A stretch of DNA of 64,000 nt from Anaerolineae bacterium (GTDB lineage: Bacteria > Chloroflexota > Anaerolineae > DRVO01): contig JABLXR010000015.1 in the NCBI GenBank assembly GCA_013178015.1, forward strand, positions 1-64,000, given 5' to 3'. Within the stretch, counting starts at the first letter, position 1, and each line of letters opens with the position of its first letter. Positions 15,346-55,850 of this stretch are shown in pieces. A program made the position numbers and the translations under genes. A model generated the notes under the pieces. It was not told the DNA's origin. It searched no databases and was given only the letters and a program-made list of their open reading frames with translations.

Positions 15346-15946
15346 AGACGGCGCTGCGCCGGGGTCCAATCACGAAGGCCGAGAGTCCAGAGCCCGCCGC
15401 CTTCTGCCGTCCACCCTCGACTGGGCTGCCAGTATCTCCGTGGAGCCAACGTCTTGGCCAAGGGCCTCAAAGCCCGGACCGCAGCCTTGCAGCGTGGCCA
15501 CCTACCTTACGCATCTGTTCACCATCGGCGGGCGATAGGCAGCTGCGGAGCGCGGCAACTCCCGAGGAGTTCGCGGGCCCACGGGAGAGGTGGGCCCGCC
15601 ACCGGGCGTCCCTGGCCGGTACCACTAACGCTGACCGCCAATGCGAGACCCCGGCTCACCAGGATGCCATGGTCTTGCCCACCCATCGGGCAGCAGAGCC
15701 TGCCCCGAATGCATTGCCGCTACGCCCGCCTTGGAGGAGTGCGCGTGCCCGGGCGCGCCGTGTCTAGACCTGCCCACCGCGCCTGCGGCTCTCGCTCCTC
15801 AAAGGGGACGTGAACGACATCGCCCTGCCCTCGTGGCCGGCCGAGGAGCAGGCCCTGAGAGCCTGCGTAGAAGCCGCCTGCGCGGGTCGACCCGGTGCCA
15901 CTGCCGTCTCAATGCGCTCTTCCCTCCGATCCTGAGTTCTCCCCAT
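15346..15946. other. Gene-free stretch with a degenerate palindromic repeat
   Basis: I see no supported gene here. A degenerate copy of the dispersed 'GAGGAGTTCGCG' repeat (family A) lies at 15561-15604 and contains a perfect 10-bp stem, GCGGGCCCAC (15573-15582) with GTGGGCCCGC (15590-15599). Confidence 0.5.
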
Positions 15947-36440: not shown

Positions 36441-36764
36441 CGCCATGCTCCCCCAGCACCGCCGCGGGCATCGCATCCCCGTACAGCGTGCCTTCGGTGG
36501 CGGCGCAACCCCCGGTAACGTCGGCTCGGCCAGGTGGCGCGTGCCCCGCGAGGGAATGCGTCCCCTGTGCTCTCAGAATAGCGCATCGGCGCCGGCCGGG
36601 GAAAGGAGCGGCAACGGCTCGGGATCAGGCGGGAGGAGTCTGCGAGCGTGCCCCACGCACCCCAGCACCGGGATGGGGCTGTGGTGGCGGGGCCGCCGCG
36701 CGCGTGGGCGCGCGAACTCCTCGGGGGTGGGCGCAAACTCTTTGGGGGTGAGGGCTCGACCCTT
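36441..36764. other. Intergenic spacer with family A repeat
   Basis: No gene seen. The reverse-oriented palindromic repeat is described separately at 36698-36727. Confidence 0.4.
36698..36727 (-). repeat. Dispersed palindromic repeat, family A
   Basis: CGCGCGTGGGCGCGCG followed by AACTCCTCGGGG, the reverse complement of the copies at 46471, 50464 and 50569. A second, decayed half (CAAACTCTTTGGGGG) follows. Confidence 0.7.
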
Positions 36765-46470: not shown

Positions 46471-46497
46471 CCGAGGAGTTCGCGCGCCCACGCGCGA
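46471..46497 (+). repeat. Dispersed palindromic repeat, family A
   Basis: CCGAGGAGTTCGCG followed by CGCCCACGCGCGA. It lies between the two copies of the 70-bp repeat. Confidence 0.75.
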
Positions 46498-48006: not shown

Positions 48007-48852
48007 TCAGCCGCTCCGCTTGAGCTTGCCACTCCGCTTGGCATAGTACTCCGCCTTGGAGAACACGTACAGCCCCAGCGGGATGGCCACCAGCCCCATG
48101 CCCAGGAGGATCCCCAGGTCCGGAAGCAGCCGTCCCCAGTCCGCCCCTTCCAGGATGGCAGCGCGCATGGACCGCAAAGCATAGGTAGCCGGGGACGCGG
48201 CGGCGATGCGTTGCATCCACCCCGGCAGCACGTCCACCGGGTAGTAGATGCCGCTCACCAGCAGCAGCACCGCCTCCACCACGTGGGTCATCTGGTCTCC
48301 CTTCTCTGGGAAGAGCAAGGGCAGCACCGCAGTCACGATGCCGAACCCGATGAAGCTGATGCTCCCGGCAAAGGCGATGGCCAGGGCTCCGGCGAAATTG
48401 GCGCCGCTCACGCTCAGGCGGAAGAACAGGGCCACCACCACGAAGATGACGCTGGTGAACAGGAGCCCATACACGAGCGAAAAGAGCGTCTGCCCCACCA
48501 GATGGGTGCGTCGCGACACCGGCGCCATGAAGGTGTATTCGATGGTGCCCTCCCACCTCTCCCAGGAGATGGTCTCGCTGATGGAATGGAACACCAGGTC
48601 CAGATAGCCCCACACCAGGCTCCCCACCAGCAGGTAGAGCACCAGGTAGTTGGTATCCACCGCCACCCCGGTGATGGCCTCCATCCCGGCGCCGATGTAC
48701 GTGATCGCCAGGGCGTTGACCACGCTGTAGATGAGCCACACCAACTCCCAGCCCCAGTAACGCCGCACCAGGTTGAAGTTGCGCTCGACGAAGGCGTAGG
48801 AGGCGGACGCCTCCCGCACCACCGAACGCGTCACCCCCGCCAGCACGCTCAT
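48007..48852 (-). CDS. ABC-2 type transporter permease
   Basis: A 281-residue permease with six membrane segments, among them LVLYLLVGSLVWGYLDLVFH and LLFTSVIFVVVALFF. GIYYPVDVLPGWMQRIAAAS is the typical ABC-2 end region before the last helix. Basic C-terminus. It starts within the ATPase gene (4-base ATGA overlap), so the two proteins are coupled. The family includes daunorubicin/oleandomycin-type drug exporters. Substrate is unknown. Confidence 0.9.
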   Translation of the reverse strand: MSVLAGVTRSVVREASASYAFVERNFNLVRRYWGWELVWLIYSVVNALAITYIGAGMEAITGVAVDTNYLVLYLLVGSLVWGYLDLVFHSISETISWERWEGTIEYTFMAPVSRRTHLVGQTLFSLVYGLLFTSVIFVVVALFFRLSVSGANFAGALAIAFAGSISFIGFGIVTAVLPLLFPEKGDQMTHVVEAVLLLVSGIYYPVDVLPGWMQRIAAASPATYALRSMRAAILEGADWGRLLPDLGILLGMGLVAIPLGLYVFSKAEYYAKRSGKLKRSG

Positions 48853-49679
48853 ATCACCACCTCTTCGCCCACCAGCCGCTTGCCGGTGAGCTCCATGAAC
48901 ACGTCCTCCAGGGTGACCGAACGATCGCCCACCGGGAGCTGCGCCTTGAGCCCGGCAGGCGTGTCCAGAGCCACGATGCGGCCCTCATCAATGATCGCCA
49001 CCCGGTCGCAGAGGGTCTCAGCCTCGTTCATGTCGTGGGTGGTAAGCACCACCGTGGTATCGTGGGAGTCGCGCAGCTCCCGCACGAACTGCTGCACGTC
49101 CCGCTTGGACCGGGGATCGAGTCCGGTGGTGGGCTCGTCCAGCAGGAGCAGGACGGGCGACGTCAGGAAGGCCCGGGCAATGGCCACCTTCTGCTGCATC
49201 CCCCGGGACATCTCATCCAGCGGGGAGTAGACCGACCGGCCCTCGATGCCCAGGCGCGCCAGGATGGCCACGATCTTCCGCCGAGCCTCTCCGCCGCTCA
49301 GACCGTACAACCGGGCGGCGTACATCAGGTTCTCCATGGGGGATAGCTTCTTGAAGAAGGCTGCCTCCACCGACACCCGGTTGATCATCCGCTTCACCGC
49401 CTCGCTTTCCCGGACCACGTCGTGGCCGAAGACGCGGATCGTCCCTCCGTCGGGAATGAGTAGAGTGGCCATCAGGCGCACCAGGGTGGACTTCCCGCTC
49501 CCGTTGGGTCCCAGGACGCCGAAGATTTCGCCCCTATGGACGGTGAGGCTAACGTGATCCACCGCCATGACCCTCTTCTTCTTGGCGCCCGAGCGACGGA
49601 AGAAGGACGGCAGGGCCAGACGGCCGTTGCCGCCGAAGGCCTTGGCTACCTCGGTGATCTCCAACGCGGTCTCAGACAT
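48849..49679 (-). CDS. ABC-2 type transporter ATP-binding protein
   Basis: A 276-residue ATPase of the drug-exporter (DrrA-like) group. Walker A is GPNGSGKST, the signature is MSRGMQQKVAIARA, Walker B is LLLLDEPTTGLDPRS and the switch is LTTHDMNEAETL. The C-terminal tail SVTLEDVFMELTGKRL is usual for this group. It is preceded by a promoter, a 28-codon leader frame and an intrinsic terminator, so its expression is probably controlled by attenuation. Confidence 0.92.
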   Translation of the reverse strand: MSETALEITEVAKAFGGNGRLALPSFFRRSGAKKKRVMAVDHVSLTVHRGEIFGVLGPNGSGKSTLVRLMATLLIPDGGTIRVFGHDVVRESEAVKRMINRVSVEAAFFKKLSPMENLMYAARLYGLSGGEARRKIVAILARLGIEGRSVYSPLDEMSRGMQQKVAIARAFLTSPVLLLLDEPTTGLDPRSKRDVQQFVRELRDSHDTTVVLTTHDMNEAETLCDRVAIIDEGRIVALDTPAGLKAQLPVGDRSVTLEDVFMELTGKRLVGEEVVI

Positions 49680-50463: not shown

Positions 50464-50491
50464 CCCGAGGAGTTCGCGCGCCCACGCGCGA
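50464..50491 (+). repeat. Dispersed palindromic repeat, family A
   Basis: CCCGAGGAGTTCGCG followed by CGCCCACGCGCGA; near-identical to 46471-46497. Confidence 0.75.
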
Positions 50492-50568: not shown

Positions 50569-50597
50569 CCCCGAGGAGTTCGCGCGCCCACGCGCGA
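50569..50597 (+). repeat. Dispersed palindromic repeat, family A
   Basis: The same 27-base core as 46471-46497 and 50464-50491, in the same orientation. Confidence 0.75.
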
Positions 50598-50871: not shown

Positions 50872-51513
50872 ATGTTTGTGCAGCAATTCCGGACGGGCGG
50901 CGACCGCAACTTCGGCTACCTGGTCGCCGACGAGGACACGCAGCAAGCTGCCGTCATTGACGCGTCGTACTCCCCCGACTCCATCCTCGGCTTCGCCCAC
51001 GACCGAGGCTACCGGATAGCCTACGCCTTCAGCACCCACGCTCACGGCGATCATACCAACGGCAACCCGGTCATAGAGGCCGCCATCGGCAGACCCGTTC
51101 TCCTCTACGGCCACCGGGACCCCGACACCGGTATCACCCTCACCGACGGCGCCAGGCTACCCCTAGGCAACCTGCAGATCCGAGTCATCCACACCCCCGG
51201 ACACACCGAGGACTCCATGTGCCTCTACGTGGGCGATGCCGTCTTCACCGGCGACACCCTCTTCGTGGGCAAGGTAGGCGGGACCGACCTGGGCCAGGGT
51301 GCCCGCCAGCAGTACCACTCCCTGCACCAGAAGCTCATGACCCTCCCCGGCAGCACCACCATCTTCCCCGGCCACGACGTCGGCGTGTCACCCGTCTCCA
51401 CCGTAGCCCACGAACGGGAGACCAACCCTTTCCTGGCCCAGCCGGACTTCGAATCTTTCGTGCTGCTGAAGGCAAACTGGTCGGCCTACAAGGCGGAGCA
51501 CGGCATCAAGTGA
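50872..51513 (+). CDS. Metallo-beta-lactamase-fold hydrolase (glyoxalase II-like)
   Basis: A 213-residue dimetal hydrolase. [10 protein letters not shown] gives the HxHxDH motif, [12 protein letters not shown] the next His, FTGDTLF the bridging Asp and TIFPGHD the final His. The fold includes glyoxalase II, which cleaves thiol esters of glutathione or bacillithiol, and persulfide dioxygenases. It is the first gene of a run leading into bshC, bshB and bshA and overlaps the next gene by 4 bases. A thiol-linked role is therefore inferred from context. Good GGAGG precedes the ATG. Confidence 0.88.
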
Positions 51514-52313
51514 CCGCCTGGTACGAAGAGAGCTTCGGAAGCGAATACCTACGACTGTACGCCCATCGGGACTTGGCCGAGGCCTGCGCCAACATCCGGG
51601 CTATCGAAGCCCTTCTCTCCCCGCCCAAGGACGAGCCCCTGCTCGACCTCTGCTGCGGTGCGGGCCGCTACCTGGTGGCGCTTTGGAGGGCCGGCTTCCG
51701 GCGCTTGGTCGGCCTTGACCTCTCCGAGGATCTGCTCCAGGTGGCGGCCAAGGAGCTCCGGCGGGCGGGGGTCCCTCAGGTGTGCCTTGTCTCCGGGGAG
51801 GCTGTCGGGGATGATGCTCCGGACGCCGAGCGTGTGCTGCTGGTGCGGGAGGACATGCGCCGCATCCCCTACCGCGACATCTTCGCCACCGTCATCTCCA
51901 TCTTCACCTCCTTCGGTTACTTCGAGACGGACGAGGATAACCGGGCCGTCCTGGTGGCGGTGCAGCGGGCCCTGCGCCCCGAGGGCACCTTCCTCCTGGA
52001 TTATCTGAACCGCGACCACGTGATCACCCACCTGGTGCCCGAGGACGAGCGGCTCCTCCCCGACTGCCGCGTCCACAACCACCGGTGGATCACTGACGAC
52101 GGACTGCGAGTGGAGAAGCTGGTCACGATGACGCCAGAGCGTGGGGAGCCCCGCCAGTTCCGGGAGTCGGTGCGCATGTACTCCCAGCGGGAGATGCGGG
52201 AGATGCTGATCTCGGCCGGCTTCGCCGCCGTAAGGGCGTATGGGTCCCTGGCCGGCGAGCCCTATGGGCCCGATTCGCCCCGGCTGGTCCTGGTCGCCCA
52301 GGCTCGGAGTTGA
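51510..52313 (+). CDS. Class I SAM-dependent methyltransferase in thiol operon
   Basis: A 267-residue methyltransferase. Motif I is [15 protein letters not shown] and the acidic motif II is [31 protein letters not shown] is the post-motif substrate region and [14 protein letters not shown] motif IV/V. The GTG start overlaps the hydrolase stop (GTGA) and bshC begins 14 bases after its end. Tight linkage suggests it acts on bacillithiol or a bacillithiol intermediate. N-methylated bacillithiol made by a SAM methyltransferase is known from Chlorobi. This assignment is inference. Confidence 0.8.
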
Positions 52314-52326
52314 GGGGAGCGAGAGC

Positions 52327-53943
52327 ATGGCCCGGAGCCAGACGAAGGTAGAGCTTCCCTGTTCGATCGAGTACGTTCCCGAGCGCGACCTGCCAGCGTC
52401 GGCGGGCAACCAGCTCTACCTCGACTACATCGCCGGCGCCCCGTCGGCACGTCGGTTCTATGGTCACGGTCCTCTGGACTTCACCGCCGCCCTCGCCGAG
52501 CGCCAGGCTGTCCCCTACCCGCGCGCCCGCCTGGCCCACCTTTTGGAGGCCTACAACGCCGGGCTAGGTGCGGCACCCGAGGCCCTGGCCGGGGCGCGCG
52601 ACCTGGCAGATAGCGACACGTACTGCGTCATCGGGGGCTCTCAGGTCGGCTTCCTCGGCGGGCCGGTCTACACCACCTACAAGATCGTGGCCATCATCCG
52701 CCTGGCGCGCCGCCTGGAGGAGAAGTTGGGCGTGCGCGTGGTGCCAGCGTTCTGGCTGGCCAGCGAGGACCACGACTTCCAGGAAGTGAACCACGTCTAC
52801 TACCTCCAGCCCGACGGGGAAGTGGGCCGGGTGCGCTTCACCTGGAACGAGCAGGGCAAACCGATCTCCGCCCTCCCCCTGACTCCCGAGGCGCAGCGCG
52901 CCGCCAACCAGTACTTCGCTGCCCTTGAGCCAGGGCCACACCGGGATGAGACGCGAGCGCTCTTCGCCCCCCGGCCGGGCGAGACTTACACCTCCTGGCA
53001 TGGCCGCGTATGGGCCGACCTCTTCTCGCCCCAAGGGCTGGTGTTGGTGCAGCCCGAAGTGCTCCGGCCGCTGGCGGGCGACTTCTTCGGCCGGGCTCTT
53101 CAGCAGGCGGAGGCCATCGCGACGGCGCTGGCCCAGGTGGCGGGAGAGCTGCGGCAGTATGGCTACCAGCCTCAACTCACTTCGGCCGATGCCGGACGGC
53201 TCTACCTGATAGATGAAAGGGGCCGCCGCCTGCGCGTGGACGATGCGCCCACTCACGTGGAGCGAGCTCGCCGCCAGCCCGAGCACTACTCCACCGACGC
53301 CGCCCTGCGACCCGTGTTCGCCGACGCCGTCCTGCCGGTGCTGGCGGACGTCCTTGGGGCAGGAGAGATCGCCTATCAAGGGATGCTCCAGCCGCTGCAC
53401 GGGTTGTTCGACGTCCCCCAGCCGGTGCTTTTCCCCCGCCCTCACTATACGGTGGTAGGCCCCGAGGAGAGCCAGGCACTAGAGCGCTACGGTGTCACCG
53501 CCAGAGACATCCTTACGGCCCAGCTAGACCCAGCCGGGATCTTCCGTCGCGCGGCAGCCGATCACGACAGGGCCGAGTTCTATCGGGCCCGATCGGAGGT
53601 GAGGAAGGCGCTGGAGCCTCTGCGGGAGCGGGTGGAGCGCATTGACCCCAGCCTGGGTCGCACCTGGGAGGGCACCCTGGCGAAGGCGCTGCGAGCCGTG
53701 GACAAGCTGGAGGAGCGGGCCCAGCGAGCCCAGTTGAGCCAGTCCGGTAGAAGCAGGCAGGGGTTGCACGCCCTGCGCAACGCCCTCCTACCCCGCGGCC
53801 GGCTCCAGGAGCGCATGCTACCTCTGCCTCACTTCCTGAACCGGCACGGCCGTCCCTTCCTCCAGCTCCTCTTCGACGCCGGCCAGCTCTGCCGGTTCGA
53901 TCACTCCATTCTCACCTTGGAGGAGGCTGATGCCCGGGGTTGA
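52327..53943 (+). CDS. bshC: Bacillithiol biosynthesis cysteine-adding enzyme BshC
   Basis: A 538-residue ligase-like protein thought to add cysteine to GlcN-malate, the last step of bacillithiol synthesis. Diagnostic blocks are VIGGSQVGFLGGPVYTTYKI near residue 102 and PAFWLASEDHDFQEVNH near 141. LLPRGRLQERMLPLPHFLNR lies near the C-terminus, and the length matches BshC. The ATG follows GGGGAGCGAG. It overlaps bshB by 14 bases. Confidence 0.92.
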   Translation: MARSQTKVELPCSIEYVPERDLPASAGNQLYLDYIAGAPSARRFYGHGPLDFTAALAERQAVPYPRARLAHLLEAYNAGLGAAPEALAGARDLADSDTYCVIGGSQVGFLGGPVYTTYKIVAIIRLARRLEEKLGVRVVPAFWLASEDHDFQEVNHVYYLQPDGEVGRVRFTWNEQGKPISALPLTPEAQRAANQYFAALEPGPHRDETRALFAPRPGETYTSWHGRVWADLFSPQGLVLVQPEVLRPLAGDFFGRALQQAEAIATALAQVAGELRQYGYQPQLTSADAGRLYLIDERGRRLRVDDAPTHVERARRQPEHYSTDAALRPVFADAVLPVLADVLGAGEIAYQGMLQPLHGLFDVPQPVLFPRPHYTVVGPEESQALERYGVTARDILTAQLDPAGIFRRAAADHDRAEFYRARSEVRKALEPLRERVERIDPSLGRTWEGTLAKALRAVDKLEERAQRAQLSQSGRSRQGLHALRNALLPRGRLQERMLPLPHFLNRHGRPFLQLLFDAGQLCRFDHSILTLEEADARG

Positions 53944-54646
53944 CCTGATGGCCTTCGGGGCTCATCCAGACGATATCGAGATCTGCTGCGGCGGCACTCT
54001 CATCAAGCTGGCCCAGGCGGGCCACTCCGTGGTCATGGTGGACATGGTCCGCGGCGAGATGGGCACGCGAGGAACGGCCGAGACGCGCCTGGCCGAGGCA
54101 GAGGCCGCCCGCCGAATCATCGGCGCGGTGGCCAGAGAGAACTTGGCCCTCGAGGACGGGTTCCTCCAGCCCAGCAAGGAGGCCAAGCGCCGCGTGGCCG
54201 AGGTAGTCCGACGATACCGGCCCAGCATGGTCCTCGTCCCTTACTACCAGGGACGTCACCCCGATCACTACCACGCCAGCGATATCGCCTACGAGGGCGT
54301 GTTCCTCGCCGGGCTGGCCCGCTTCGAGACCGGGCAGGAGGCCTATCGCCCCTCCAGGCTCCTCTACTACATGACCCGACAGGGTTTCGAACCCACTTTT
54401 GTGGTGGACATCAGCGCTCAGTTCGAGCGCAAGATGGAGGCCATCTACGCCTATGCTACCCAATTCCGCCCGGACGTCGGCGACTGGGGCCAGACCCGTC
54501 TCACTGCGCCCGGGTTTCGGACCTCGCTCGAGCACTGGATGGGCTACTATGGCTCCTTGATCGGCACCGCCTACGGTGAGGGCTTCCTCGTACGGGGCAT
54601 CTTGGCAGTAGAGAGCCCCCTGGATCTCACCTTCGCCTCGTTCTGA
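53930..54646 (+). CDS. bshB: GlcNAc-malate deacetylase BshB
   Basis: A 238-residue PIG-L-family zinc deacetylase that converts GlcNAc-malate to GlcN-malate. AFGAHPDDIEICCGGTL carries the AHPDD zinc motif and GRHPDHYHAS the third ligand. MVRGEMGTRGTAETRLAEA is typical of BshB1. The ATG lies inside the end of bshC, with TTGGAGGAG just upstream. Confidence 0.92.
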   Translation: MPGVDLMAFGAHPDDIEICCGGTLIKLAQAGHSVVMVDMVRGEMGTRGTAETRLAEAEAARRIIGAVARENLALEDGFLQPSKEAKRRVAEVVRRYRPSMVLVPYYQGRHPDHYHASDIAYEGVFLAGLARFETGQEAYRPSRLLYYMTRQGFEPTFVVDISAQFERKMEAIYAYATQFRPDVGDWGQTRLTAPGFRTSLEHWMGYYGSLIGTAYGEGFLVRGILAVESPLDLTFASF

Positions 54647-54716
54647 GGGCCGGAGCCAACCCGACCACGTAGCGCGCCCGGCTAGCCGCCTTACCCACCG
54701 AAGCAAGGGAGGAAGT

Positions 54717-55850
54717 ATGCACATCGGGATAACCTGCTATCCCACCCACGGAGGCAGCGGCGTCGTCGCCACTGAGCTGGGCAAGTACTTGGCAGAGCGC
54801 GGCCACGAAGTCGCGTTCATCAGCTACTCAATGCCGCTGCGCCTTACCACGCTTCCGCCTCGGGTCAGCTTCCACGAAGTGGAGATAGTGGAATACCCTC
54901 TGCTCCAGAACTTCCCCTACAGCCTCGCGCTGGCGGCCAAGATGGTGGACGTAGCCCGGACCCGCAAACTGCAGATACTGCACGTTCACTACGCCATACC
55001 CTTTGCCGCCGCGGCCCAATTGGCGCGACGCGCTGCCCCCGATCTCAACCTGAGAGTGGTGACCACACTCCACGGTACCGACGTCACTCTGGTGGGCAAC
55101 AACCCCTCCTTCCGTCCCATTACTGCCTCCATCATAGACAACTCCGACGCCGTGACCGCCGTCTCCCACTTCTTGCGCGAAGAGACCTACCGCCAGTTCA
55201 AGGTGGAGAAGGAAATCCAGGTCATCTACAACTTCGTTGACCCGGAGCGCCACCAGCCACCCTCCCCCGCCTGCATCCCTACGTGCGACCGTGCCCGCCA
55301 GGTGACCCTGATGCACATCTCCAATTTCCGCCCCGTGAAGCGCGTCGCCGATGTGATCCAGATCTTTGCTCGGGTGGCCGCTCGCCTGGATGCCAGGCTG
55401 ATCCTCATCGGCGACGGGCCCGAGGCAGGGATGGCCCTGGAGCTGGCGCGGAGCCTGGGGGTGGGCGATCAGGTGGTGTTCGTGGGCGTGGTGGACGAGG
55501 TGGCGCCTCTCCTCTCGGTGGCGGATCTGTTCCTCCTGCCCAGCGAGACGGAGAGCTTCGGGCTGGTGGCCCTGGAAGCCATGGCCAGCGGCGTTCCCGT
55601 GGTCGCCAGCGACGTGGGTGGATTGCCTGAGGTAGTCGAGCATGGGGTCTCCGGGTACCTTGCCCCGGTGGGCGACGTGGACAAGATGGCCGAGTACGCC
55701 ATCGACATCCTGTCCGACCGGGAGCGGCGGGCCAGATTCTGTCAGGCGGCTCGAGCCCAGGCACGCCGGTTCGACTACCGAGACATCGTTCCCCAGTACG
55801 AGGCCGTGTACGAGAGGGTCCTGGCCGAGGAGACGGTGTCACACGGCTGA
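54717..55850 (+). CDS. bshA: Bacillithiol glycosyltransferase BshA
   Basis: A 377-residue GT4 glycosyltransferase that joins UDP-GlcNAc to L-malate. The N-terminus [20 protein letters not shown] is the BshA signature, with [16 protein letters not shown] following. [13 protein letters not shown] and the EX7E block [18 protein letters not shown] complete the fold. GGAGG precedes the ATG. It sits 70 bases after bshB, on the same strand and probably in the same transcript. Confidence 0.93.

Follow-up and report, generated by a model that had tools for sequence, protein, structure and literature searches.

The locus described here raises the question whether a member of the Chloroflexota makes a methylated form of bacillithiol, and what a metallo-hydrolase contributes at the head of the corresponding operon. 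The window analysed is a stretch of 64,000 nucleotides from contig 15 of an Anaerolineae genome (4.57 Mb, 97 contigs). Taken as a whole, the genes at 50872-55850 are read as an N-methyl-bacillithiol operon with a probability of about 0.8, a figure that excludes the substrate of the hydrolase.

Operon layout and surroundings

The five genes proposed in the sequence-only reading are all real and are located on the + strand at the positions given there:

50872..51513, + strand: MBL-fold metallo-hydrolase, 213 aa, first gene of the operon (Pfam Lactamase_B; nearest solved structures are ETHE1-type persulfide dioxygenases)
51510..52313, + strand: nmbA, predicted SAM-dependent bacillithiol N-methyltransferase, 267 aa, GTG start (match to 9RI2 (CtNmbA), tree, reciprocal search)
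52327..53943, + strand: bshC, cysteine-adding enzyme of bacillithiol synthesis, ATG start (TIGR03998, 334.9 bits; cut-off 265.8)
53930..54646, + strand: bshB1, GlcNAc-malate deacetylase (TIGR04001, 266.5 bits; cut-off 182.5)
54717..55850, + strand: bshA, N-acetyl-glucosaminyl L-malate synthase (TIGR03999, 507.9 bits; cut-off 273.7)

BshA, BshB1 and BshC all exceeded the NCBIfam equivalog cut-offs, and a complete bacillithiol pathway is present in one operon. The bshA of the operon was the only TIGR03999 match above cut-off in the host genome. In the window, the hydrolase gene overlaps nmbA by 4 bases and bshC overlaps bshB1 by 14 bases, as described before; the gap between nmbA and bshC measured 13 bases and not the 14 reported earlier, and 70 bases separate bshB1 from bshA. 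The arrangement is not due to chance, since the identical order recurs across many genomes. Promoter and terminator scans of the operon yielded nothing informative. No equivalog of YpdA (bacillithiol disulfide reductase) was found, which counts against the N-methyl-bacillithiol reading.

In a genome of the same genus (G025), nmbA-bshCBA is flanked by the same CAAX-protease-like and dehydrogenase/GrpB genes as in the window, and a binning artefact is unlikely for that reason. This syntenic locus lacks both the hydrolase and the ABC transporter next to it. The hydrolase is thus dispensable, and nmbA is bound to the bsh genes more tightly than the hydrolase is. The ABC transporter pair of the window (ATPase 48849-49679, permease 48007-48852) is encoded on the - strand and is missing in the same-genus locus L062 6200-8001. 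Outside the genus, no further conserved operon neighbours were detected save scattered ABC-transporter ATPase matches; the other matches were mostly open reading frames running antisense to bsh genes.

A dispersed GC-rich repeat, CCGAGGAGTTCGCGCGCCCACGCGCGA, was observed near the operon (46471-46497, 50465-50491, 50571-50597 and 36698-36724), with weaker copies at 15562, 50021, 57767 and 57919. Its core occurs 51 times in the genome at no more than one mismatch, compared with 0 for the reversed control, and the copies are often clustered with a spacing of approximately 105-165 bases.

Identity and distribution of the methyltransferase

The METHYLTRANSFERASE of the operon is, as judged by sequence comparison, NmbA, the N-methyl-bacillithiol synthase. 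In a single-sequence search its best solved relative was 9RI2, the NmbA of Chlorobaculum (9.6e-34, 120 bits; next match 6e-12, 48.5 bits). A profile of 29 NmbA sequences searched against the solved structures gave 9RI2 with 1.2e-82 and 280 bits, the next match reaching 116 bits, and 9RI2 is the sole close solved relative of the operon's enzyme. In the reciprocal direction, the Chlorobium NmbA (L119) ranked the operon's nmbA first in the host genome (2e-33 versus 5e-13 for the next match, 20 orders of magnitude) and likewise the nmbA-locus gene first in G002, G181 and G025. With the same query, nothing better than 2e-13 was obtained in the BshC-bearing genomes G068, G167 and G557.

The residues H19 and R20, conserved in NmbA, are present in the operon's enzyme and invariant in the 29 NmbAs, a YxHRD frequency that is partly selected because the NmbA locus scan employed an HRD-containing pattern together with a CCGA pattern. 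Both residues are absent from the methyltransferase homologues of bshC-less genomes, where the lack of YxHRD was seen in sequences retrieved by whole-protein search and not by the pattern scan. In a tree of 91 rows, with homologues from the same class only as outgroup, the operon's NmbA was placed among the NmbAs and split from the BshC-less homologues of its class at 99% SH-aLRT. It belongs to a group of 10 rows (100%) from Anaerolineae, Lentisphaerales and Bipolaricaulota-type genomes. The structure model of NmbA (pLDDT 93.2) matched 9RI2, but SeMT, CcbJ and others about equally well; in the fold search 9RI2 came third, behind SeMT, and the fold alone therefore does not identify the methyltransferase as NmbA.

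A long-branched group of NmbA-like proteins without the SFGYF motif was noted in Acidobacteria (L133, L136, L137, L125, L128, L139; Geothrix and others), with no bsh genes in the fetched flanks. This group may have another substrate.

Among 199 genomes of the class, BshC was detected in six; in four of these the methyltransferase is located directly upstream of bshC, and the same four genomes provide the four best methyltransferase matches of the sample. Across the phylum, only 3 of 400 genomes scored above the BshC cut-off. The bacillithiol pathway is rare in Chloroflexota. Three genomes of the same class (G068 C99, G167 C204 and G557 C36; L049, L048 and L141) carry bshC and bshB and mostly bshA; as they are without NmbA, plain bacillithiol is predicted for them.

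A wider set of 80 named NmbA loci was retrieved by NmbA alone, without consulting bsh genes. In 52 of them, distributed over many phyla, bshC was the next recognised same-strand gene downstream, and many of these loci run on into bshB and bshA; the operon form is thus common outside the Chlorobi. Among the named taxa are Acidobacteria, Planctomycetota, Gemmatimonadetes, Latescibacterota, Hydrogenedentota and Deltaproteobacteria. Where bshC is not adjacent, the loci belong to Chlorobiaceae and Paenibacillus, among others, or lie at contig ends. With this operon the pathway reaches uncultured phyla whose gene content mostly suggests an anaerobic life; its occurrence there is patchy, probably through horizontal transfer.

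An NmbA-fold enzyme acting on another substrate, for instance a bacillithiol precursor or another amine, was also considered. Identity to CtNmbA is just 36%, although similarity extends over the full length, and this low value was counted against the assignment. Moreover, homologues of 33-40% identity exist in BshC-lacking relatives, and the published network contains some singletons that possibly use other acceptors (PMC12719100). Against this, the operon's enzyme has the positions conserved in NmbA, its gene directly adjoins bshC in each of the four genomes of the class sample that carry nmbA, and homologues from genomes lacking bshC lie outside the NmbA group in the tree. In addition, the NmbA of P. 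polymyxa, from another phylum, has been shown to methylate bacillithiol (PMC12719100). Another substrate is accordingly considered improbable.

The expected kinship with the Chlorobi enzyme was thus borne out: the methyltransferase groups with Chlorobi NmbA and not with unrelated methylases, and relatives retain it as a neighbour of bshC. The match to the solved structure, the reciprocal search, the tree and the adjacency to bshC together lead us to predict that the Chloroflexota host makes N-methyl-bacillithiol.

The pathway itself is known. NmbA and N-Me-BSH were reported or predicted in 2018 for Chlorobi, Bacteroidetes, Acidobacteria, Firmicutes and a basal member of the Chlamydiae (PMC6282198). 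The 2025 survey records NmbA from 1,765 species spread over many phyla, and the activity of the C. tepidum and P. polymyxa enzymes has been proven (PMC12719100). The earlier suggestion that a third major group would use the modified thiol does not stand in view of the many phyla and 1,765 species already published (PMC6282198, PMC12719100). The main text of PMC12719100 makes no mention of Chloroflexota, and a term search of PMC6282198 did not return them. New here are the place in which this known pathway occurs and its uncharacterised, conserved hydrolase partner.

The hydrolase and its possible function

Close orthologues of the hydrolase (E<=1e-30) are rare; they were found in 3 of 199 class genomes, in each case inside the operon. 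In an independent test with the hydrolase as the only query, 14 of 100 genomes of the phylum Bipolaricaulota matched, and the loci fetched from 12 of these 14 all read hydrolase-nmbA-bshC. All 15 close orthologues examined, from two phyla, directly precede nmbA-bshC. In the 10-row NmbA tree group, nmbA is directly preceded by the hydrolase at nine loci. Of nine stop/start junctions read, eight show GTGA or ATGA (4-base overlap) and one TAATG; the overlap is conserved across phyla and suggests translational coupling of the hydrolase to nmbA. A planctomycete outside this group (L070) has the hydrolase downstream of bshA, and the association has thus survived rearrangement. A plasmid search with the hydrolase returned distant relatives only (<60% identity).

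An unrelated MBL gene merely carried along with the operon by horizontal transfer would agree with the patchy occurrence of the cassette over phyla and with the lack of the hydrolase in G025. There is little likelihood of this, given that the 15 examined orthologues adjoin nmbA in two phyla, most of them having been retrieved by the hydrolase alone, and that stop and start codons overlap in the junctions read. The association is plain from the loci and points to a role of the hydrolase in the use of this thiol. The linkage to nmbA is much stronger than the sequence-only reading could have known, whereas the action on thioesters or persulfides suggested there is still a guess. Such a conserved link was not seen in the passages of PMC6282198 and PMC12719100 consulted, nor is it described in the titles or abstracts found for bacillithiol in Chloroflexi or Bipolaricaulota, or for NmbA together with bshC.

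All metal ligands of the hydrolase are present (H56, H58, D60, H61, H111, D128, H168). The function favoured, at slightly below even odds, is that of an O2-independent, glyoxalase-II-like hydrolase of N-methyl-bacillithiol S-acyl adducts. The glyoxalase route that depends on bacillithiol is known to include S-lactoyl-bacillithiol as a metabolite (PMC9686547). Against this role stands the observation that the closest solved proteins, by sequence and by fold, are persulfide dioxygenases and not glyoxalase II.

The main alternative is a persulfide dioxygenase which, like CstB/ETHE1, would convert N-methyl-bacillithiol persulfide to sulfite and free thiol. The best solved sequence matches are 4YSB, 9RHQ and human ETHE1 over nearly the whole length, and the top fold match is ETHE1. 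The His/His/Asp iron ligands (H56, H111, D128) are retained and invariant, which is weak evidence since they are common to most MBL hydrolases. A dioxygenase preferring bacillithiol persulfide is known from S. aureus (PMC6060420). On the other hand, the Arg common to all three types of persulfide dioxygenase (hETHE1 R163, AcPDO R139), whose replacement by Ala left 0.4% activity in AcPDO (PMC6060420), corresponds to Gly137 in 10 of 10 aligned hydrolase members and in 9 further ones. The T-H-hydrophobic-H-A-D-H motif is lost as well (THAHGDH in the window; THDHYDH, THGHEDH or similar in others). Membership in the persulfide dioxygenase family was rejected on the failure of both features.

No heme-copper (COX1) or bd oxidase was found in seven carrier genomes (G002, G181 and those of L065, L067, L068, L069 and L070), which are incomplete MAGs, and an O2-requiring hydrolase is therefore unlikely in most carriers. 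The host genome of the window has three COX1 matches, and that of L063 has fragments; oxygen may thus be available in the host, which counts against the O2-independent argument. On balance, persulfide dioxygenase activity is considered rather unlikely.

With respect to the favoured O2-independent hydrolysis, we tentatively propose, at odds clearly short of even, a distinct MBL family of S-conjugate hydrolases dedicated to N-methyl-bacillithiol, which would have spread with the nmbA-bshCBA cassette through Chloroflexota, Bipolaricaulota, Lentisphaerales and Planctomycetota. To our knowledge, no enzyme using N-methyl-bacillithiol is known, and such a hydrolase, if confirmed, would be the first. 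Because it stands in tandem with nmbA in nearly every known case, the hydrolase is a direct handle on the thiol, and its substrate should reveal a role of methylated bacillithiol.

Proposed pathway and comparison with known systems

In the pathway proposed, gene identities were taken from this analysis and the chemistry from characterised families. BshA would join GlcNAc (from UDP-GlcNAc) to malate, BshB1 would take the acetyl group off the product, and BshC would add cysteine to yield bacillithiol. NmbA would then methylate the cysteine nitrogen of bacillithiol with SAM, giving N-methyl-bacillithiol. The MBL hydrolase may cleave S-acyl adducts, e.g. S-lactoyl-N-methyl-bacillithiol, without oxygen in the manner of glyoxalase II.

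With the NmbA of Chlorobaculum tepidum (CT1040, PDB 9RI2) and that of Paenibacillus polymyxa, the operon's enzyme shares the conserved positions and the presence of bshA-C. The C. tepidum genes nmbA, bshB and bshC lie scattered (CT1040, CT1419, CT1558; PMC6282198), whereas in the window they form a single operon.

The hydrolase has the MBL fold, approximately 30% identity and the metal ligands in common with the ETHE1-type dioxygenases (4YSB, 4CHL, AcPDO) and CstB. Unlike these, it has Gly in place of the essential Arg, lacks the HxHAD motif, and is encoded beside nmbA-bshC in mostly oxidase-less genomes. With glyoxalase II (human GLO2 1QH3, GloB) it shares the MBL fold, a dinuclear-type ligand set and the GNE and GDTLFV stretches. 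It differs in scoring far below the curated GloB cut-off (97.7 versus 200.8 bits) and in the absence of the C-terminal helical substrate domain, the 213 aa protein having short C-terminal helices only. At the GSH-binding position the hydrolase has lost the basic residue (human Lys143). The trypanothione-using glyoxalase II of Leishmania, where Lys143, Arg249 and Lys252 are replaced, offers a precedent for exchanging basic thiol-binding residues along with the thiol (PMC9686547).
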